From a virus, in the IMG/VR virus record IMGVR_UViG_3300039191_000018, positions 1 to 20,506 of that record: 20,506 nt of DNA; one strand, written 5' to 3'. The notes beneath the pieces were generated by a model. The model saw only the letters and a program-made list of their open reading frames with translations, was not told the DNA's origin and did not search any database. The position numbers were made by a program, and so were the translations under genes. This document shows, one piece after another, positions 2,052 to 20,283 of this stretch. How positions within the stretch are numbered: position 1 is the first letter of the stretch; every line of letters begins with the position of its first letter.

Positions 2052-2176
2052 AGAAAACGCGCGATCCGATGGCACGGGAACTGAGAACACCAAAGTACCG
2101 GCCTCGGGTCGTGCCCGATAAAACCAAGAAACTCCCTCGCAAAAGGAAACACCAAGCCCCGGCCACGCGCCGGTGA
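2048..2176 (+). CDS. Small basic protein overlapping the reductase stop
   Basis: A 42-residue, lysine/arginine-rich protein beginning MKKTRDPMARELR. Its ATG overlaps the reductase stop as ATGA, a classic translational coupling arrangement. Very short basic proteins with a similar start (K-N-P-x-A-K-x-L-R like) are, from memory, common in tailed phages beside nucleotide-metabolism or structural genes; their role is unknown. Residues 24-35 are encoded by the first copy of the 34-bp direct repeat at 2119-2152, so the repeat is coding here. The stop is TGA at 2174-2176. Nucleic-acid binding is plausible from charge alone, but no domain is visible. Confidence 0.6.
   Translation: MKKTRDPMARELRTPKYRPRVVPDKTKKLPRKRKHQAPATRR
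2119..2152 (+). repeat. 34-bp direct repeat, copy 1
   Basis: A perfect 34-bp match to 2597-2630, beginning TAAAACCAAG and ending GGAAACAC. This copy lies inside the 42-residue basic gene and is translated. The bases flanking the two copies differ on both sides. Confidence 0.95.
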
Positions 2177-2204
2177 CCACACACCAACAAAAGGAACCAA
2201 CCAA

Positions 2205-2585
2205 ATGAAAAACCTAACACAAGCAGATGTCGTCCGCCTTTTTGAGGATGCAGGTCTTACGATAGACATTCGAGGATCGCTCCGAGTTACCCACAAAACA
2301 GGCACATTTCTTTACGATACTGAGGACGAGGACGACCGCGGCGTTTATATCGCAATGCACCAAGACACCATTGACGCCGATGAAAAATACCGTGTAGAAG
2401 AAGAGAGGCGCGTAGCGAAAGAAGAGGAATTAAAGGCCGCGTTCCTGAAAACGGATGAAGGAAAGGAGTGGGCGGAGAAAAGAGCATTCCCTACCATTGA
2501 CTTTTCTGGCGGGTCTGAGATGGATTTTACGGGCATGTTCGCCAACTGTGCCGACCTTAGCGGCGGCAAACCTTGGCTGAAATAG
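2205..2585 (+). CDS. Hypothetical protein (repeat-bracketed insert)
   Basis: A 126-residue protein I do not recognise. The N-terminal 50 residues look like a small folded domain (starting MKNLTQADVVRLFEDAG). Residues about 58-85 are a charged Glu/Lys/Arg stretch likely to form a helix or coiled coil, and the C-terminus is short and glycine-containing (SGGSEMDF). No signal peptide or membrane segment is seen. The ATG has a good AAGGAA ribosome binding site about 9 bases upstream. The gene lies between two perfect copies of a 34-bp repeat (2119-2152 and 2597-2630), which suggests it was inserted between the small basic gene and thyX. Its DNA looks more A/T-rich than the neighbours, which would fit a separate origin. 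Function unknown. Confidence 0.75.
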   Translation: MKNLTQADVVRLFEDAGLTIDIRGSLRVTHKTGTFLYDTEDEDDRGVYIAMHQDTIDADEKYRVEEERRVAKEEELKAAFLKTDEGKEWAEKRAFPTIDFSGGSEMDFTGMFANCADLSGGKPWLK

Positions 2586-2596
2586 CTAAGTCCATT

Positions 2597-2630
2597 TAAA
2601 ACCAAGAAACTCCCTCGCAAAAGGAAACAC
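2597..2630 (+). repeat. 34-bp direct repeat, copy 2 (thyX leader)
   Basis: The second perfect copy of the 34-bp repeat. Here it is non-coding and supplies the AAAAGGAAA ribosome binding site for the GTG start of thyX at 2635. Confidence 0.95.
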
Positions 2631-2634
2631 AACA

Positions 2635-3438
2635 GTGAAAGCAACCTATATCGACCACATGGGGACCGACCTGAGCGTAGTTAATGCCGCTCGGGTCTCC
2701 TTTGGGAAGATCTCACAGTGGGATAATGTTGACCGATTGATTGAGTACCCTGATATCACGCCAACCCTCTCCAAGTCCGACCAAGGGCTGATCGCTTTCC
2801 TGGCTCGGGGTTGTACCTCGGGTGATTGGGATAATATCATCGAAGATGTAATCGGAACATCCATGTGTGATCTCGTTGATCCCGATCTCGATCCTCGGGA
2901 TGAACTCCTGCCTCTCCTCAAGCACATCCGTAAGATGCCCGACCACTGGACACCCTTTGGTCACACAGCGATCACACTGCACATGAAGGCACCAATCTTC
3001 GTGGCTCGCCAGCTAGGCAAGCATCAGGTGGGCATGGTGTGGAACGAGGTAAGCCGCAGGTACATCTCAGATGACCCTGAGTTCCACTTCCCCTCGGAGT
3101 GGCGTGGGGCTGCTGACAACGCCAAACAAGGCTCCAGTGATGGACCCTGTGCTCAAGACGAGTGGGCACAGAGCAAGTATCTGGACCTGATAGAGGAGGC
3201 TGAGGCCACCTACAAAGGCATGATCGCAGCGGGAGTATGCGCCGAGCAGGCTCGTATGGTCCTCCCACAAGCCATGGAAACTGAATGGTACTGGACGGGG
3301 AACCTATACAGCTTCGCCAACGTGTTCGTTCAGCGATCCGACAATCATGCCCAGCGCGAAGTCCAAGAGATCGCTAGGCAGATCGGTAAGATCATCCAAC
3401 CCCTTTATCCGGTCTCATGGGATGCACTGACCAAATGA
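2635..3438 (+). CDS. thyX: Flavin-dependent thymidylate synthase ThyX
   Basis: Makes dTMP from dUMP using methylene-tetrahydrofolate, FAD and NADPH, complementing the reductase just upstream. The 267 residues begin at GTG, chosen because of the ribosome binding site in the repeat and because the N-terminus (DLSVVNAARVSF) matches the family start. The signature region is residues 125-143 (RQLGKHQ..., WNEVSRRY). It keeps the N-E-x-S-x-R-Y half of the ThyX motif, but the usual RHR triad reads KHQ and the motif serine position is V135. The C-terminal part (QARMVLPQAMETEW, then NLYSFANVFVQRS and AQREVQEIA) matches the ThyX dUMP/FAD-binding helices. Length is slightly above the bacterial 220-250. 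The stop overlaps the following glutaredoxin-like start (ATGA). Confidence 0.93.
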   Translation: MKATYIDHMGTDLSVVNAARVSFGKISQWDNVDRLIEYPDITPTLSKSDQGLIAFLARGCTSGDWDNIIEDVIGTSMCDLVDPDLDPRDELLPLLKHIRKMPDHWTPFGHTAITLHMKAPIFVARQLGKHQVGMVWNEVSRRYISDDPEFHFPSEWRGAADNAKQGSSDGPCAQDEWAQSKYLDLIEEAEATYKGMIAAGVCAEQARMVLPQAMETEWYWTGNLYSFANVFVQRSDNHAQREVQEIARQIGKIIQPLYPVSWDALTK

Positions 3439-3984: not shown

Positions 3985-5565
3985 ATGGAAAACCAAGGCA
4001 CATGCCAAGCCCGGTACGAGCTGCTTGCGACCAACCGTGAGGTGTACCTCGAGAGGGCGCGGGAAGGCTCGAAGCTGACAATCCCAACGCTAATCCCTGC
4101 ATCAGGGACAGGCAAGCATACCAACTATCCCACCCCCTATCAAGGCGTAGGTGCGCGTGGGGTAAACAACCTAGCGTCCAAGCTCCTGTTGTCTTTATTC
4201 CCGCCCAACTCTCCATTCTTCGCTATGCGAGTGGATGACTTCATGGCGGACGAACTGGCACAGGAAGATGGCGCTAGGGCGAAGGTTGATGAACAGCTCG
4301 GGAAGTACGAGCGGTCAGTCATGCAGTCCATCGAGGACAGCGGTGACCGGTCTGCCCACTTCGAAGCCCTCAAACATCTTATCGTTGGCGGCAACGTCCT
4401 CCTATACCTCCCAAAGGATGGTGGAACCAGAGTGTTCCCATTGTCCCGCTATGTCGTCACTCGTGATGCCATGGGCGAAATGATCGAATGTATCATCGAA
4501 GAAGAGATGGCGTTTGCATCAGTGGCCGAGGATATACGTGAGCTTATCGCTGATGAACTCAATGCTGCAGAAGCTGATAATGGTCCTGATCCTAAGGCCA
4601 CCGTCAAGCTGCACACCAAGTTCTACCTCGAGAACGACAAGATTAAGTCGTACCAAGAAGCGAATGGCGTCCGTGTCCCTAAATCAGAAGGAACATGGCC
4701 TAAGCTAAAGTCGCCTGTCATTGCTCTCCGGTGGACGCGTATCGACGGCGAAGATTACGGTCGTGGTTACGTCGAAGAATACCTCGGTGACCTAATATCC
4801 CTCGAGGGTCTCTCAAAGGCCCTACTCGAAGGATCGGCAGCGGCTGCTCGCCTCGTGTTCCTCGTGCGCCCAAATGGTGTCACCAGAGCCAGGGACGTGA
4901 TGTCCGCTGAGAACGGCGCTGCTGTCTCAGGTGCTATGGACGACGTTCAGGCCCTACAAGTCAACAAACAGGCCGACATGAGCGTTGCTGAAAGGCAGAT
5001 CGGTCAACTGATCGAGCGTCTCAGCTTTGCGTTCCTCATGAACAGCGCAGTGCAGCGCCAAGGTGAACGAGTCACGGCAGAGGAAGTCCGCTACATGGCG
5101 GGTGAACTCGAGGATGCCCTAGGTGGTGTCTACTCGATCCTCTCGCAAGAGTATCAGTTGCCCTACGTCATGCGTGTTATTGACCGCCTGACAAAGCAGA
5201 AGAAGCTCCCCTCGCTGCCCGATGGTGTCGCCAAGCCAACTATTGTTACTGGTCTGGAAGCACTGGGACGTGGTCATGATCTTACCAAATACGACATGCT
5301 GCTCAAAGCACTCGCGCCCCTCGGGCCTGAGGTTCTGGGCCAGTACATGAACGTGGGTGATTACATTACCCGTATCGGCACCGCCCTCGGTATCGACCTC
5401 GACGGTCTCGTGAAGACCCAAGAGCAACTCGAGAAAGAACGGGCAGAAGCTCAACAACAACAACAGCAACAGATGATGGCTCAGATGGCTGAGAAAGCTG
5501 TCCCCGCCGTAGCCAAAGAAGGCTCCGAGGCAGTCCGTCAGGCTGTACAACCTCAAGAAGGCTAA
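3985..5565 (+). CDS. Portal / head-to-tail connector protein (T7 gp8-like)
   Basis: Forms the dodecameric portal ring at one capsid vertex through which DNA is packaged and ejected. The 526 residues compare with 536 in T7 gp8 and align with it along the whole length. Clear blocks are YQGVGARGVNNLASKLL, an EALKHLIVGGNVLLYLP-type segment, a DGEDYGRGYVEEYLGDL-type segment, LSFAFLMNSAVQRQGERVTA, the ELEDALGGVYSILSQEYQLP block, and a GLEALGRGHDL-type block near the C-terminus. The tail ends in a polyglutamine run (about residues 489-495) and a charged, alanine-rich segment. The start has a GAGAGGA ribosome binding site. Only 6 bases separate it from the scaffold gene, as expected for a co-translated head operon. 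Confidence 0.95.
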   Translation: MENQGTCQARYELLATNREVYLERAREGSKLTIPTLIPASGTGKHTNYPTPYQGVGARGVNNLASKLLLSLFPPNSPFFAMRVDDFMADELAQEDGARAKVDEQLGKYERSVMQSIEDSGDRSAHFEALKHLIVGGNVLLYLPKDGGTRVFPLSRYVVTRDAMGEMIECIIEEEMAFASVAEDIRELIADELNAAEADNGPDPKATVKLHTKFYLENDKIKSYQEANGVRVPKSEGTWPKLKSPVIALRWTRIDGEDYGRGYVEEYLGDLISLEGLSKALLEGSAAAARLVFLVRPNGVTRARDVMSAENGAAVSGAMDDVQALQVNKQADMSVAERQIGQLIERLSFAFLMNSAVQRQGERVTAEEVRYMAGELEDALGGVYSILSQEYQLPYVMRVIDRLTKQKKLPSLPDGVAKPTIVTGLEALGRGHDLTKYDMLLKALAPLGPEVLGQYMNVGDYITRIGTALGIDLDGLVKTQEQLEKERAEAQQQQQQQMMAQMAEKAVPAVAKEGSEAVRQAVQPQEG

Positions 5566-6342: not shown

Positions 6343-6812
6343 TGAAGCCCTGCAAGAACTGCCAAACGCCGTTCACGCCTGTCAACGGAAACCAGATCAT
6401 CTGCTCACAGCGGTGCAAGGATATCCACAAGAGCAGGAAGTGGAGGGCCGAGAACAAGGAACAGCGCAAGGAGATCGCTAGGAAGTGGAGGGCCGAGAAC
6501 AAGGAGATCGCTAGAAAGAACTGGCACGCTCGAAAGCACCAGATCGAGTGGACCGAGGAAAGACGTGAGAAGAGCCGAGAGGCTTCCCGCCGGTGGCGAG
6601 CGAAGAATAAAGCACACCTCCGTCGATACCGAGGCTACAACTGGATGAACCGGGCATGCATCCCCGCGCAGCGCATCCTAGCTCTGGCTGATAAAATGAA
6701 CGATCATCAAAAAAGGAGGTTTGCGGATTGGATACTCAAGGTTGGACACGAGGCGTTGAGGCACCACGAGGTGGATTACTTCGTGAGCGACTTCAACACT
6801 CAAGAAATATGA
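6342..6812 (+). CDS. Zinc-ribbon, Arg/Lys-rich protein; possible degenerate homing endonuclease
   Basis: A 156-residue, very basic protein with no counterpart between scaffold and capsid in T7. The N-terminus carries a treble-clef/zinc-ribbon pattern C4-x2-C7-x13-C21-x3-C25. This is followed by repeated helical segments with the core RKWRAENKE (residues 32-40 and 47-55) and a weaker third copy (83-91, RRWRAKNKA). The C-terminal 55 residues contain several histidines (H137, H141, H142), but I cannot identify an HNH or GIY-YIG active site. Cys4 knuckle plus tandem WRAENKE-type repeats are, from memory, common at the front of phage HNH-type homing endonucleases. A DNA-binding selfish or regulatory protein is therefore the best guess. 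It starts by one-base overlap with the scaffold stop and lacks a strong ribosome binding site, so translation is probably coupled. Confidence 0.7.
   Translation: MKPCKNCQTPFTPVNGNQIICSQRCKDIHKSRKWRAENKEQRKEIARKWRAENKEIARKNWHARKHQIEWTEERREKSREASRRWRAKNKAHLRRYRGYNWMNRACIPAQRILALADKMNDHQKRRFADWILKVGHEALRHHEVDYFVSDFNTQEI
6435..6505 (+). repeat. Intragenic direct repeat in the zinc-ribbon gene
   Basis: A 26-bp segment starting AGGAAGTGGAG occurs identically at 6435-6460 and 6480-6505, 45 bp apart. A 13-bp AAGGAGATCGCTA segment also repeats at 6468-6480 and 6501-6513. Both encode the RKWRAENKE-type helical repeats and indicate recent tandem duplication. Confidence 0.9.
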
Positions 6813-8886: not shown

Positions 8887-11556
8887 ATGGCATTCGTGGC
8901 AAACACGATCCCCAACCTCGTGTCTGGGGTTTCTCAACAGCCATCGTCTTCACGCCTAAAAACATCAGGTGAGCAGATGGTGAACGCGTTCCCCTCAGTG
9001 GTCTCAGGGTTGATCAAGAGACCGCCCTCGGAGTTCGTCCGTGAGCTATCCCCAAACATGGCCGTGAGTGACACCGCAGCGGTCCACATGATTAACCGTG
9101 ACGCAAACGAGAAGTATATCCTCGTGTGTGGCGATGGGGACCTAGAGTTGTATGACGAGGAAGGGACAAAGCAGACCGTATCGTTCCCCTATGGGAAGGA
9201 TTACCTGCCCACCGCCGATATCTGGCGCAAGATGCGCTTTGTCACAGTGGCTGATACCACGTTCATGCTCAACACGGATATTATGGTTCAGGCAACAGAC
9301 ATCCCTGAGGCATCTCCAACCCTAATGACCGTGGGGCAGGTAACCATCAATCAGGTCGTGGACAGCTTCACGTACACCATTACAGTCGATGGGACGACCT
9401 ACGCGGAGTACACATCTGCCACACCGCAGGCTCCGAGCTATGGGCAAGAGGGCGTGCTTATCCAAGAGGGCATCCCCTCAGACACTCTCGTAGACATCGC
9501 TACAGGTCTATTCTTCGACCATGTCGCCCGGGGGTTCGACTCCGCTGAACTAGCGTACAACACGATCACCTTTGATGTCCCTAACGATGCTACCGTCTCA
9601 GGACCCACCTACGTCACCACCAGCACGTCGCAAATACCGGTCACGGGTGTTGGCAGCTTTCGTCAGAACCCGGCACTGAAAGGCTCCGTGTTCATCAAGA
9701 AGGCTGTGGCCGCAGTGAACTATGCGGTCTACGTGGGAGACACCTTGGCTGGATCGACGGCCACAAGCTCCAACACAACTGCAAATACTGCCCTCGAGGG
9801 CACCGCAGAGATCGCTCGAAATCTGGCAGCGGACATGCGGACCAATGGTTTCTTAAGCGCAGAGGCCGTGGGCACAACCGTCACGCTGGACATTGCAGCT
9901 GGAGAGAAGCTCACCGTTCTCGATGAGTTTGGTGGTGGCTCTATGGAAGCCTATACGGACACCATTCAGGCGTTCGATGATCTGCCTCCGAGTGAACTCA
10001 ATGGTCGCTTGGTGAAAATTCAAGGTGACTTGGAGGGAGACGGCAGTAGCTATTGGGTCGAGTTCAAGGATGGTATCTGGACCGAGAGTGTTGGCTATGA
10101 GGCCAAGCGCGGTCTGGACGCGGCAACCATGCCCCACGTCCTCGTGAAGGTAGGGACCAACCAGTTCGAGTTCCGTCAAAACGATTGGAAGGACCGCTTG
10201 GTTGGGGACGAAGATAGTAACCCAGACCCCAGCTTCGTCGGTCAAAAGATCAACAATATGTTTCTTTTCAAAGGTCGCCTAGGTCTTCTGTCAGGTGAGA
10301 ATGTTATCCTGTCTGAAGTGGCAAAACTTGAGAACTTCTATAGAACCACCGTGGTTCAGCTCCTGTCCACAGACTTGATTGATATTGCATCCACGACAGG
10401 CCGAGTTTCAACTCTGTATCACGCAGCGTCGTTCTCTGACGAATTGATCCTCTTCTCGGACAAGCAACAGTTCCGTTTGTCCTCGGCCAACGTCCTATCC
10501 GCTGAAACTGTGGGCATCACCAACTCGACAGGATACCCATGTTCAACTCTGGTCGCCCCTGTGACCGTTGGGTCAAGCGCATATTTCATCGCGGAGGGTG
10601 CCACGAACTCGCTCGCACGGGAAATCTTCATCGACGGTGATCGTGAGACAGTGAGTGGCGAAGACATCGCTGTTCAGGTTCCCAGCTACATTCCCTTGAA
10701 CATTCGAGGGCTGGCCGCATCCACAACGGCTGACGTGTTCTTGGCCCTTTCTGAGGACAAGCCCAACGAACTCTACGTCTACAAGTGGTACATCACGGAG
10801 CGGAAGAAAATCCAATCCGCATGGTGCAAGTGGACCTTCGATGAGAATGTGAACATCGTGGGAATGGGGTTCCTCGAGGGATACCTCTACCTCGTCTACA
10901 AGGTGGGCGATAATGTGCGTATTGACCGTATCTTGATAGAGCCTATTCTCGAAAAGGAACTGTTGCTCGATCACCAGATCACCAAGGCAGACTTCACGTC
11001 GATCACCTACGACGGGACCGCCGACGAGACAACCGTTGTGACCCCCTACTACACCCCTGCGATCCTTGAGTTCTACAAGACCGATGCAGGGGCATTTGCG
11101 CCCTACGACGGTGTTACCAAGTCAGCCGCAAACACCTATGTGATCCCCGGTGACGTAACGGCTAACCAAATCACCGCAGGGATCAACTACGAGTTTCTCT
11201 ATGAGTTCTCAAGTCAGTATCTCCGAGAGAAAGGCAGTGAAGGTGAAAGCCCCATCCAAGATGGGCGGCTACAGCTCCGTTATTTCTCTGTGATCTATAC
11301 CAACACGTCTTACTTCGAGGCTCACGTTACCCCCAAGGGCAGCCAAACGTCGGTATCCGTGTTTAACGGTAGGCTCTTAGGTGACCCTGATAACGTGGTC
11401 GATCTCATTCCAAAGGATACAGGAGAGTTCAAGTTTCCAGTGTTTGCTCAGAATGAGGAAGTGATCATCCAACTGAAATCCAACCAACCCTACCCGGTAT
11501 CCATTGGCTCCGTTGAGTGGACGGCTGTTTATAAGCAAAAGGCTAAGAGAGTATAA
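8887..11556 (+). CDS. Tail tubular protein B / nozzle (T7 gp12-like)
   Basis: Forms the hexameric tail nozzle that the fibres and gp11 ring attach to. The 889 residues are longer than T7 gp12 (794). The start (NTIPNLVSGVSQQPSSSRL) is the strongest family signature, followed by EQMVNAFPSVVSGLIKRPP. Later blocks are VKVGTNQFEF, RLGLLSGENVILSE, ELILFSDKQQFRLS, and the TVGSSAYFIAEG and YKWYITERKKIQSAWCKW region typical of the beta-propeller. The extra length relative to T7 may lie in the region around residues 230-350, rich in Thr/Ala/Gly, perhaps an inserted beta domain. The stop overlaps the next ATG by one base. Confidence 0.93.
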   Translation: MAFVANTIPNLVSGVSQQPSSSRLKTSGEQMVNAFPSVVSGLIKRPPSEFVRELSPNMAVSDTAAVHMINRDANEKYILVCGDGDLELYDEEGTKQTVSFPYGKDYLPTADIWRKMRFVTVADTTFMLNTDIMVQATDIPEASPTLMTVGQVTINQVVDSFTYTITVDGTTYAEYTSATPQAPSYGQEGVLIQEGIPSDTLVDIATGLFFDHVARGFDSAELAYNTITFDVPNDATVSGPTYVTTSTSQIPVTGVGSFRQNPALKGSVFIKKAVAAVNYAVYVGDTLAGSTATSSNTTANTALEGTAEIARNLAADMRTNGFLSAEAVGTTVTLDIAAGEKLTVLDEFGGGSMEAYTDTIQAFDDLPPSELNGRLVKIQGDLEGDGSSYWVEFKDGIWTESVGYEAKRGLDAATMPHVLVKVGTNQFEFRQNDWKDRLVGDEDSNPDPSFVGQKINNMFLFKGRLGLLSGENVILSEVAKLENFYRTTVVQLLSTDLIDIASTTGRVSTLYHAASFSDELILFSDKQQFRLSSANVLSAETVGITNSTGYPCSTLVAPVTVGSSAYFIAEGATNSLAREIFIDGDRETVSGEDIAVQVPSYIPLNIRGLAASTTADVFLALSEDKPNELYVYKWYITERKKIQSAWCKWTFDENVNIVGMGFLEGYLYLVYKVGDNVRIDRILIEPILEKELLLDHQITKADFTSITYDGTADETTVVTPYYTPAILEFYKTDAGAFAPYDGVTKSAANTYVIPGDVTANQITAGINYEFLYEFSSQYLREKGSEGESPIQDGRLQLRYFSVIYTNTSYFEAHVTPKGSQTSVSVFNGRLLGDPDNVVDLIPKDTGEFKFPVFAQNEEVIIQLKSNQPYPVSIGSVEWTAVYKQKAKRV

Positions 11557-14886: not shown

Positions 14887-14903
14887 ACTAAGGAAACCCA
14901 CAA

Positions 14904-15227
14904 ATGGCAGATTATGAAGGAATCCCACAGCAGGCTGTCGATAGCCTGTTAGCCAACCCTGAGAAAGCAGATGGCTTCGATCAGGTGTTTGGTAAGGGAC
15001 GGGCAGCGGAGGTTCTCGCAGGCCGGGACCCTCAGCCCGAACCTAAGGACAATAAGTCCCCTCAAATGGCAGATTATGAAGAAATCCCACAGCAGGCTGT
15101 TGACAGCCTGTTAGCCAACCCTGAGAAAGCCAGTGGCTTCGATCAGGTGTTTGGTAAGGGACGGGCAGAGGAGGTTCTCGCAAGCCGGGACCCCCAGCCC
15201 GAACCTAAGGCCAAGAAGTCCCCTGAG
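14904..15227 (+). repeat. 162-bp in-frame tandem duplication at the gp16-like start
   Basis: Units 14904-15065 and 15066-15227 match at 149 of 162 bases by hand count, encoding 54-residue modules that differ at 7 positions. Both units begin with ATG GCA GAT TAT GAA. Confidence 0.95.
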
Positions 15228-18200
15228 ATAGGGTTCTTCGAGACGATATGGGATGTGTCAGGCCGTGCCGTCAACACCGGTGCCGGACGAGCAATCAACG
15301 AAACCTTTGACGCTTTTGAGAGCTTCGACCGTTGGGCCTCCGCCAATCTTGACTCCATCGGTATTCCTACGCGTATACAACTCGTGGACAAGGACGGCAA
15401 CTTCGACTTAGACCTCAAGTATAGCCATGAGGTTGACATGGATGCCACCGCGTATGGTAATCTGAATATCGGCTCGTTCGATGGCCCTAAAACCACTACA
15501 GGAGGCCTCGTATCTGGTATTGCCCAGTTTGGTGTGGGCTTCTTTGGTGCCGGTAAGTTCACCAAACTGTCCGGTATCCGTGCTATGTTCGTCAACAGTG
15601 CAATCTCTGATGCCTTGGTCTTCGATCCAGACCACAAGAACGTCATGGGCATGCTGGACGGATTGGAAATCGACACAAGTGCCGTACGGGAAATCCTCGC
15701 GACCGACCCAGACGACCCTGAGTTCATCAACAGGTTACGCAACGTGGCCGATCCTGTCGGCGTTATTGATAACTTGGAAGTCATAGACGGGAAAATCGAC
15801 ACAGGTGCCGTAGGGGAAATCTTTGCTACCGACCCCGACGACCCTGAGTACATCAACCGGCTACGCAACGTGGCCGAGGGTGTAATCATTGGTGGTATCT
15901 TGGAAGCCATAGGTTTCGGTATCAAGGCCGCTCGAGCAGAGAAGATGGGAAACCCCACGGAAGCAAGGCGTCTCAGCGCCCTTGAGAAGGAAGCACTTAA
16001 GCCCCTAGATGACGCCCTGCGTGAGCAGGCAGCCAAAGCCAAAGACGAGGCCAAGGAAACTCTCGAGACCGCTAAAGAGATGTTTGGGGACGACTTCGCG
16101 ACACCTAAGGTCGATCCTGATGTACAAGTCAACACGGACCTTGGGGATACACCCTCGGTTCGCCCTGAAACACCCACAGAACCCGGCAAGAACCGCATCT
16201 ACCTGCCGCCTGAGAAGGCTGAGAAGATCAGGTTGCAATCCGCTCTGGCGCGTGACAAGAGCCTCGGTGAGAAGCTTACGGACCTCTCGTGGCGCTCGCC
16301 TGCGACCATGAGGGACCTTGACGCGGTATCCGACGAGATTGCAGGGGTCTCGGCTGTTCTCAAGGAACAGATCATGAAGGCCAAAGGTGGTGACGTACAG
16401 AGTCTGGCAACCATCCAGATGAAAGCCGCAGCGGCCAAGCGTCGTCTCATGGAGCAAGCCTCGGACCCTGAGGCACTCATGAAGACACTCCAGACCACCT
16501 ACAAGGGGGACCCTGAAGGTATGGCAGCTGAGATGATCGCTCGAGAGGACTTCACGATGTCGCTCGGCAATAAGATCACCGAGATGGCTCAGAACATTTC
16601 CAAGGGCCAGTTTCACCCAGAAGCCATGAAGGGTTACGCTTCCTTCGAGGAGTATAAGCTGGCATTTGATACAAACCTCGAGGTTTACGCGAACGCACTA
16701 TCCGGCAACAACGCCAACCGGGCAAACGTCGGTCGCACCATGCGGGCCATGCAGATTGCTCGGAAGTCCACCGAGGGTATCGAGAGAATTCTGAGTGACC
16801 CCAGCATGTTCAAAGACGTTGACGCCAAGGCGAAAGCTATTGCTGATCCGGCGAACGCTGGTAAGCCCATCCTGACGACCACCGAAGCTGCCCTGAAGCA
16901 CCTTCACGGGTATATGGAGCGGCTCAACTCCTACCGGATCAACGCACTGCTGTCTGGTCCAGGTACGCAGGAGGTCAATATCATCTCAAACGCGGTCAAC
17001 GGCTTCGCCATTCCCACAGAGCAGTTCTTGGGTGGCATGTCGACGGGTGACGTAAAAATGATGACACACGCAACTCGTCAAATCCAAGGCTACATGGCTG
17101 GTCTCATGGACAGTGTCAAAGCTGCTGGCCAAGCTGGCTGGTGGGATGATGCGATCCTCGATCCTTATTCTCAGAAGCTGGAAGACCAGAGCGTCATGGG
17201 GCAAATCCTTGAGCCTCCATCGGGCAACTCCTCGCTCGCGAAAGTGGATAAGGGAATGAAGCTGCCCCAGCGTGGTCTCATGACCATGGATGAGTTCTTC
17301 AAGCAGTCCCAATACCGGGGGCGGGTGTTCGCTGATGCTAATGCGATGGCCAACTCGAAGCGTCTCAAGGGCGCTGAGAAGACTGAGTTCATCCAGAAGT
17401 ACCTGAAAGAAAGCTACGATGAAGCAGGTGCAGCAACCCGTGCGGATGCTCTCCTACAAGCCCGTCGTGCCACATTTACTGAACCACTGGAACCTGGCTC
17501 GTTCGCTGCAAGCATCCAACAGAACGCCCTCACGCATCCCGAATTTCGGTTCGTGGTCCCTTTTATCAGGACACCTATCAACCTCACGTCACAGACGTAT
17601 CAACATGCGCCTCTCGTGGGGACATTGTCTAAGCGTTTCCGTGATGACATCGCGGCGGGCGGCGTAAGGGCTGCTCAAGCGCGAGGGCGTCAGATATTAG
17701 GCACCGCGCTTGTGGGCATAGCAGGCACTCTGGCAGCCCAAGGTATGATCACAGGTGCAGGGCCTCAAGACCCTCGTATCCGCAAGGTGTGGATCAAGAA
17801 CAACCAGCCGTACTCTTTCCGCATCCCGCAGGAAGATGGCTCGGTCAGCTTTGTGTCCTACGCACGTCTCGAACCATTGTCCAACGTCTTCTCTATCGCG
17901 GCTGATGCTGTGGAAATTGCAGCAGATGAATATAACGAGTCTGATACCACTCCAATGATTCAGGCCCTGCTTATATCCATCATGGATAACACGATCAACA
18001 AGACGTTCACTAAGAGTCTCTATGAAGCCATGTTGGGGTTAGTTGGGAGACCACATGAACAGGAAGCCGCTCTGCGAAACACGGTGGCCTCGTTTGTGCC
18101 CAACGTGTTGAACCAGACCAACGGCGATAAAGCCCTCAGGGAAACCCGCGATATGGCCGATGCCATATTGGCCCGAACCGGGCTGTACAATGGTATCGAT

Positions 18201-19320: not shown

Positions 19321-20283
19321 ATGGCCTACTCAGAAGCCCTGTATACGGGCGACGGCACTACCACCGACTTTGTAGTGCCCTTTGACTACCTCGATCAAAG
19401 CCACGTCTATGTGGCCGTCGATAAGGTTCCAACCTCTGCGGCTGGCTCCAACTACAAAGCAGAGTTAATCAACAGTTCGACAATTCGCGTCAACTCGGTG
19501 GTCGCTGGGGACCCCGTACCCGCTGGCATCGAGGTTCGCGTATTTCGGAAAACACCAATCACTAACCCCGCAGTGGTATTTGGTGGAGGCGCTTCCCTTT
19601 CGTCGGAAAACCTAAACAAAAACTCACAGTACCTGACGTTCGCGCTTCAAGAAGCCACGGATACAAACGAGATATTTACCTCTCTGTACTTAGGTGCTTT
19701 CGAGAGTGAACCCCTCACGGATAATGAAGGTGACCCCCTAAAAACGGGTGCGATCTACTACAACTCTGAGGGAGGTATGCTGTTTTACTATACTGGCTCT
19801 ATATGGGAGGACCTTGAGGGACCCCGTGGATTCGATGGTCCCATTGGTCCAACAGGTGCTACAGGACCCGTAGGTCCTCAGGGTGCCCAAGGTGAGACAG
19901 GACCTATTGGTCCCGATGGTCCCCAAGGTGAGACAGGACCTATTGGTCCCGATGGTCCCCAAGGTGAGACAGGACCTATTGGTCCAGTAGGTCCTCAAGG
20001 CGACACCGGACCACAGGGTATCCAAGGGCCAACGGGCGACACCGGCCCACAAGGCGACACCGGACCACAAGGTATCCAAGGGCCAACGGGTGACACCGGC
20101 CCCGCTGGTACAGACGCGACGGTGAACGCCACCAATGTCGTGGCGGCAGGCGGGGTTCTCAGCGACCCGACTGGCGTAACTGGTGCAGACGCAGTGGCGA
20201 ACATCCTGAGCATGACACAAGCAGAATACAACGCAATCGGCACGCCAAACGCAGCGACAATTTACATAATTACGGACGCATAA
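19321..20283 (+). CDS. Tail fibre / adaptor with T7 gp17-type N-terminus and collagen-like shaft
   Basis: The first about 120 residues match the N-terminal fibre domain of T7 gp17 that plugs into the tail nozzle: [17 protein letters not shown], a VEVRVFRKT-type strand (here EVRVFRKTP), and the [21 protein letters not shown] helix. Residues 167-265 are 33 uninterrupted Gly-X-Y triplets, rich in Pro, Gln, Asp and Thr, expected to form a collagen triple helix. The last 55 residues end T-Q-A-E-Y-N-A-I...ATIYIITD, a short motif common at phage tail-protein ends. At 320 residues against 553 in T7 gp17 there is no room for a large receptor-binding tip, so this is probably a shaft or adaptor for the following gene. 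The ribosome binding site is AAGGAGG. Confidence 0.9.
19891..20106 (+). repeat. Tandem repeats in the collagen-like shaft
   Basis: Three 36-bp units (19891-19926, 19927-19962, 19963-19998; the first two identical) are followed by two near-identical 54-bp units (19999-20052, 20053-20106). All keep the 9-base Gly-X-Y codon period. Confidence 0.92.

Follow-up and report, generated by a model that had tools for sequence, protein, structure and literature searches.

The window is the whole 20,506-nt stretch of DNA analyzed (IMG/VR record IMGVR_UViG_3300039191_000018). Near its left end, an nrdJ-type ribonucleotide reductase gene (54–2051; phrog_367, 1.1e-180), a small basic gene taken from the ORF list (2036–2176), a 126-codon gene (2205–2585), and thyX with a GTG start (2635–3438; PF02511, 7.8e-42) follow one another on the plus strand. 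Profile scans covered six ORFs of the window, five of them close to the insert, and the two matches confirmed the original prediction, made from the letters alone, that a reductase and thyX are neighbors here.

Two copies of a direct repeat were located on the plus strand through an exact repeat search and a copy comparison. Copy 1 (2119–2152) lies in the 3′ end of the basic gene, and copy 2 (2597–2630) lies in the thyX leader. The start-to-start distance is 478 nt, with 444 nt in between. Compared with each other, the copies were identical over exactly 34 nt, with zero extension on either side. First-order Markov simulations of the window (n = 100) gave exact direct repeats of at most 16 nt, with a mean of 13.75 nt for the longest. 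Other exact repeats of at least 34 nt were found at 14972–14973 and 19886–19916, within tandem coding repeats. Copy 1 is contained in the basic ORF and is translated with it. Copy 2 stops 4 nt 5′ of the thyX GTG (2635) and includes AAAAGG (2619–2624, plus strand), read from the sequence as the probable thyX ribosome binding site, 10 nt before the start codon. The original prediction had described a perfect 34-bp repeat with different flanks that encloses the complete 126-residue gene, is translated in the basic gene at one end, and supplies the thyX ribosome binding site at the other; it was borne out in each of these respects, the binding site being a probable one.

The basic-gene tail KKLPRKRKH was kept in the related contigs L001–L003, L006, L039, and L041. 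The residues past it varied freely: QAPATRR in the window, where these last codons after KRKH come from the insert, NSESNLYRPHGDRPERS in L001, and KNA in L039. The last codons of the tail coincide with the region of the thyX ribosome binding site. In relatives without the 126-codon gene, the basic ORF overlaps thyX by 50 nt (L001–L003) or 59 nt (L006).

The window is a partial genome. Its nearest isolates by portal protein are CRP-804, CRP-403, and CRP-118 (65–68% aa), and the records of CRP-804 and CRP-118 are labelled Autographiviridae. A cobavirus identity was considered and rejected, as the portal similarity leads to roseophages with the Autographiviridae label instead. Neither a reductase nor thyX is annotated in the approximately 4.5 kb before the portal gene of CRP-804 and CRP-118. 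The available text of a report on ten such roseophages gives ThyX for all ten (PMC11092137).

Empty sites among close relatives

An IMG/VR scan with thyX returned 15 loci. In four of them (L001, L002, L003, and L006), close versions of nrdJ, the basic gene, and thyX were present, the 126-codon gene was absent, and the repeat occurred in one copy. The nrdJ of these contigs was 90.1–95.6% identical to that of the window in nucleotides, and the thyX of L001–L003 was 96.5–98.0% identical. The thyX start lies 109 nt past the end of the nrdJ match in the four contigs, compared with 587 nt in the window. Over the portal gene, the window shared 98.7–99.1% nucleotide identity with L001–L004, L006, and L008 (L006 over 890 nt only). 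The presence of the gene varies among these very close relatives: it is found in the window and L004 and is missing from L001–L003 and L006, while the L008 contig does not reach the site. An alignment of the nrdJ–thyX interval across relatives had been put forward as the check for an insertion, and the four gene-free, single-copy intervals in the order reductase–basic gene–thyX are the arrangement that was anticipated.

A scan with nrdJ returned 120 relatives, 80 of which were kept. In the locus count, 84 loci were considered; 82 contained the nrdJ C-terminus, and 76 of these had at least 600 nt downstream. None of the 76 carried the 126-codon gene, the reverse of the pattern that would speak against an insertion, namely the gene and both repeats in all relatives, distant ones included. 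The 76 include second copies of L001–L003 (three loci); most are 57–82% identical in nrdJ, and many are distant. The empty sites with one repeat copy and the 0/76 result support the recent gene gain that had been claimed. Clean loss through recombination between the repeats is possible in principle; the loci compared offered no example of it.

L039 and L041 combine an nrdJ of 79% nucleotide identity with a basic gene ending in KRKHKNA, and showed no thyX match. L012–L014 have a distant nrdJ only, and L005 and L008 start at or within thyX. A search of six related contigs for the gene was negative in all six; these are fragments, there was no positive control, and L005 and L008 lack the site, so the result carries little weight. 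In the named isolates ICBM1 and CRP-227, the reductase is followed by glutaredoxin or phoH. In L009 (59–837; thyX 56% aa), a different 194-codon frame separates nrdJ and thyX, so the interval accepts other genes too.

The 126-codon gene in other phages

IMG/VR scans for the gene gave 14 loci, and a second scan gave 13 loci that form a subset of the same contigs. Besides the window, 11 contigs hold complete or nearly complete copies; seven of these (L019, L021–L026) represent one repeated arrangement. L027, L028, and L029 have partial copies. The protein identity was 89–95% for five aligned homologues, and the coding DNA of the window was 92.9–96.2% identical to that of five others over aligned codons. 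The dN/dS values were low (0.09–0.47, 15 pairs), which indicates a maintained protein under purifying selection.

The gene region of the window was 88.7–93.9% identical in nucleotides to L016, L017, L018, and L022, whose backbones are otherwise different. L017, L018, and the left arm of L004 have a DNA polymerase (phrog_1252) and a phrog_93 endonuclease. L016 is GC-rich and encodes a terminase small subunit. L022, with its truncated relative L028, belongs to an AT-richer phage type. L027 has RNA ligase and kinase-like genes, with just 127 nt of the 126-codon gene at the contig end. This occurrence in several different phage backgrounds makes gain likelier than loss.

No copy was found by tblastn in INPHARED phages and PLSDB plasmids or in two scans of genome_contigs, where records very near the window may be omitted. 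Pfam, PHROGs, PADLOC, and PDB yielded no convincing distant homologue. The weak matches, which were not trusted, were phrog_28797 (E = 0.027), phrog_5465 (E = 0.12), DUF7761 (E = 0.11), and PDB 1wh1 (E = 0.0061). The AlphaFold2 model, built with six similar sequences, had a pLDDT of 43.5 and was unusable. Our guess is that the product is a moron-like cargo protein. L022 (4400–5405) contains a 5′ remnant of the gene, then a fragment resembling the endonuclease of another phage, and then a full copy. L028 (4986–5112) has about the first 109 nt of the gene only, fused to downstream sequence. These two arrangements point to repeated breakage at the 126-codon gene.

A scan with the phrog_93 endonuclease gave 39 donor-type loci, and 28 were inspected downstream. 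The complete gene was present in 4/28: L116 (which is L004), L118 (L018), L017, and L144 (the L022 mosaic). The other 24 were without a complete gene, a few of them having little downstream DNA. Five of the remaining 11 loci (L143, L145–L148) are contigs of the L022 arrangement. L117 provided a donor-type empty site at the position of the gene in L017. A pairwise scan of the donor-type group detected many gains and losses of small genes (211 raw, redundant pairs). Downstream of the endonuclease, L116–L149 display a hypervariable small-gene array with recurring hairpin leaders, which looks like modular shuffling of the SAS/ESAS or PeSL kind. Another small gene, at 10100–10340 of L166, distinguishes one relative that has it from another that lacks it, and an alignment overlap of approximately 32 nt falls at the leader and start; this overlap is imperfect (longest exact shared word 8 nt) and lends the idea of a duplication weak support. 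In L018 (621–1325), a homing-endonuclease-like ORF (phrog_314, phrog_5123 GIY-YIG) splits the DNA polymerase frame, which is uninterrupted in L004.

The hairpin leader CCCCGGCCACGCGCCGGGG followed by ACCACACACCAAC was found in 13 distinct contexts among the loci scanned, including that of the window (at most 3 mismatches), among them the 126-codon gene and several others. In 26 donor-type loci (181 kb), the leader pattern gave 7 strand-wise matches, compared with 0 for the reversed and 0.4 for the permuted pattern. It gave 0 matches in 67 kb of nine window relatives. The window leader folded no better than shuffled sequences (z = −0.37), whereas the L134 version folded better than its shuffles (z = −2.37).

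The joints and the proposed route of insertion

Donor-like DNA occupies approximately 2153–2601 of the window and comprises a GC-hairpin leader, the gene, and a trailer. The leader (2153–2204, plus strand) consists of the GC hairpin CCCCGGCCACGCGCCGGTG followed by ACCACACACCAAC and by the gene's own likely ribosome binding site. L016, L019, and L029 have the same leader ahead of their copy of the 126-codon gene, and L119, L120, L123, and L134 have it ahead of other genes. The trailer CTAAGTCCATTTAAAA (2586–2601, plus strand) is identical over 16 nt in L017 and over 15 nt in L019, and its last 5 nt are also part of copy 2. In L017, L018, and L004, the leader has no hairpin, and the trailers differ in L018, L004, and L016.

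At the left joint (2149–2153), ACAC is common to the recipient and the L134-type leader (4 nt), and the L029-type leader shares 1 nt; the donor match starts at 2149 for the former and at 2152 for the latter. The word AAGGAAACAC was weighed as the site of the left crossover and rejected: the actual joint keeps the donor hairpin, and ACAC or a single C fits better. Its enrichment in 30 donor-type loci is mild: 26 occurrences of AAGGAAACAC vs. 9 of its reverse, at most 1 mismatch. At the right joint, the window agrees with the L017 trailer as far as 2601 and with its own copy 1 starting at 2597, which gives five shared letters (TAAAA). Given the overlaps of 4–5 nt at the joints, the certainly duplicated part measures 25–29 nt, and the duplicated recipient DNA 25–34 nt overall. 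The original claim that the repeat was duplicated at the junction thus stands for the core, and the outer 4–5 nt may be letters shared with the donor.

The 28-nt core of the repeat was detected in five viral contigs (L001, L002, L003, L006, and L004) and in no donor-type phage lacking recipient DNA. The repeat belongs to the recipient, its core being confined, among the contigs matched, to the virus type of the window and to L004, which is a hybrid (see below). The window repeat is identical to the single copy of L001–L003 and L006 over 29 nt up to a mismatch, which is at the fifth base (AAAACC in the window copies vs. AAATCC in these relatives). The exact recipient was not found among the relatives: L039 has AAAACC, yet it is different elsewhere.

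We consider it likely that a leader–gene–trailer segment of approximately 445 bp was gained from an unrelated phage through two illegitimate exchanges, which left a duplicated recipient stretch. The recipient would have been a roseophage-like podovirus. Both exchanges, assisted by microhomology, would have occurred within the short segment that the basic gene and the thyX leader share. The left crossover would lie downstream of the conserved tail of the basic gene, and the right crossover 5′ of the thyX ribosome binding site. The DNA between these two points, at most 34 nt, would have been retained on either side of the insert, and its duplication would have left both neighbors working. Insertion without duplicating approximately 12 nt (AAAAGGAAACAC) would mean the loss of one gene's end or the other's start. 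Selection for both neighbors may explain why the duplication was retained. We infer the two-exchange route and the order of its events.

Several observations weigh against this explanation. A single contig shows the left joint, whose 4-nt microhomology was chosen among several donor variants, and the microhomologies are short. When the right joint is measured against L001–L003 and L006, the recipient part begins at 2602 with zero shared letters. In coding sequence the window comes nearest to L017, but the hairpin leader it carries matches the type of L016, L022, and L029. An earlier gain followed by repeat-mediated losses would leave identical sequences.

L004 (which is also L020 and L030) bears on the order of events. 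At 4483–5000, a different phage type with the DNA polymerase, the endonuclease, and the 126-codon gene is joined directly to a window-type thyX. To the left, the contig is colinear with donor-type phages; to the right, it is the virus of the window from ATAAAACC on. The gene allele is 92.9% identical in nucleotides to that of the window over the codons. A strong hairpin (−27.2 kcal/mol) between the gene and thyX resembles one of L018; the L018 hairpin is followed by TTAAAACCC, so that at most seven letters (TAAAACC, read by eye) are common at the L004 joint. The recipient boundaries of L004 and the window agree within 1 nt, with an identity of 34 nt to copy 2 and 35 nt to copy 1. For L004, a hybrid genome or a very recent exchange is likelier than an assembly error. 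The agreeing boundary reflects either one ancestral hybrid or TAAAACC as a preferred joint. For two random exchanges, this agreement would be unexpected unless there was a common ancestor or a hot spot, which also counts against our explanation. An L004-like hybrid with the TAAAACC joint may have come first, followed by recombination with an ordinary relative and a deletion that trimmed the trailer. This course is compatible with the two-exchange gain, and we put it at somewhat under an even chance. The shared boundary, the gene carried by both, and the donor-type left arm of L004 speak for it, whereas L004 and the window differ by 7% of nucleotides in the gene and by 10% in thyX, and their gene–thyX spacers differ.

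The single-copy arrangement of L001–L003 and L006 would also result if the gene and both repeats were ancestral and the relatives had lost the gene by repeat recombination, restoring exactly one copy. We regard this as unlikely: the deep gene-bearing relatives that it predicts were not seen among the nrdJ loci, L039 and L041 included, an unrelated phage has a copy with up to 96.2% identity, and several parallel losses would be required.

The 444 nt between the copies, the occurrence of the gene in several backgrounds, and its presence or absence among relatives resemble an autonomous ultra-small mobile element such as MPME1 (439 bp), with the 34-bp repeat as a target-site duplication. This reading is very improbable. 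The leaders and trailers vary between copies, so the ends are not constant. Five inverted-repeat pairs were found in 2100–2660, none end-to-end, with arms never at both ends of the insert. The 126-codon ORF has no transposase similarity in PHROGs, Pfam, or PADLOC, its best weak matches being families of unknown function (E = 0.027 or worse), and 34 nt is far above the usual target duplications. No insertions sharing identical element ends and the same duplication length were seen among the gene-bearing loci. An integrase att core was rejected, as the repeat core was not found in donor-type loci. An assembly or amplification artefact, which the single sighting of the left joint and the uncultivated origin of the contigs might suggest, is the least credible reading, since usual k-mer joins need longer overlaps than the joint letters (5 and at most 4 nt), the separate record L004 shows the right joint type again, and the reading frames are intact on both sides.

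Known systems and other repeats

The closest published precedent that we found is the mycobacteriophage LRRHood. Relative to Cali, LRRHood has an extra 1.35 kb with four genes, including a repressor, and 29-bp direct repeats (Pope et al. 2011, PMC3029335). In the accessible text of that paper, the 29 bp are single-copy in close relatives and reported absent from phages outside the subcluster, and the authors were unable to reconstruct the insertion route. The window insert likewise lies between perfect repeats with one copy in relatives, at a gene end upstream of the next gene. LRRHood differs in gaining four genes instead of one, and donor-type loci and both joints are in view here.

The duplication may be a selection signature at a dual-use junction, such repeats may mark former gene overlaps, and the thyX joint may be a recurrent landing site; we advance this only tentatively. 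If it is true, a new gene could be fixed at a shared 3′-end/ribosome-binding-site junction only when a second copy of the junction arises in the exchange. The short direct repeats that flank new phage genes, as in LRRHood, would then be marks of former overlaps and not of element activity. The thyX joint (window, L004) would recurrently receive a promiscuous gene common to unrelated phages.

Like the phage morons described in the accessible text of PMC3029335, the window gene is inserted between two genes that are contiguous in L001–L003 and L006. A promoter and terminator consensus scan of 1900–2800, which left other promoter types uncovered, gave 0 and 0 (shuffle means 0.5 and 1.5), and the L004 version has the strong downstream hairpin. 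The same text presents MPME1 and MPME2 as elements of about 440 bp, which are likewise present or absent among close relatives; they are bounded by inverted repeats on the left and right and show a 6-bp addition on one side, whereas the window insert has variable ends, lacks end-to-end inverted repeats, and comes with a duplication of at most 34 bp. The donor leader, a hairpin with start-proximal sequence before different genes, is similar to the SAS/ESAS of Cluster K mycobacteriophages as far as these are covered by the accessible text of PMC3203893, but its sequence is different and its copies are few (7 strand-wise matches in 26 loci). In T4-type phages, PeSL regulatory cassettes (Arbiol 2010, Comeau 2014) contain stem-loops tied to gene shuffling, according to the available portion of PMC4503421. 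Both are stem-loop cassettes with gene shuffling, and the donor leader is likened to PeSLs by its hairpin, not by a promoter.

Our literature searches, which were not aimed at this interval alone, returned no description of the nrdJ–thyX interval. The window insertion is a known kind of phage gene acquisition, unusually well resolved and otherwise ordinary. Small-gene gains are frequent in phages, but a case that shows the empty site together with donor-type DNA and both joints is rare. The repeat is recipient DNA that apparently has a double duty in gene-free relatives, which offers a testable reason for such repeats and a marker of recent gains.

The window contains further repeats. A perfect 26-nt repeat (6435–6505) lies in a 156-aa ORF whose similarity to NinG is weak (E = 0.0088) and does not reach the curated cut-off. 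A 1291-aa ORF has a tandem 162-nt duplication (93%) at its start (14897–15220) and two 120-nt copies (83%) at 15667–15912, 126 nt from start to start. Collagen-like tandem repeats occupy 19836–20102 in a fibre-type gene.
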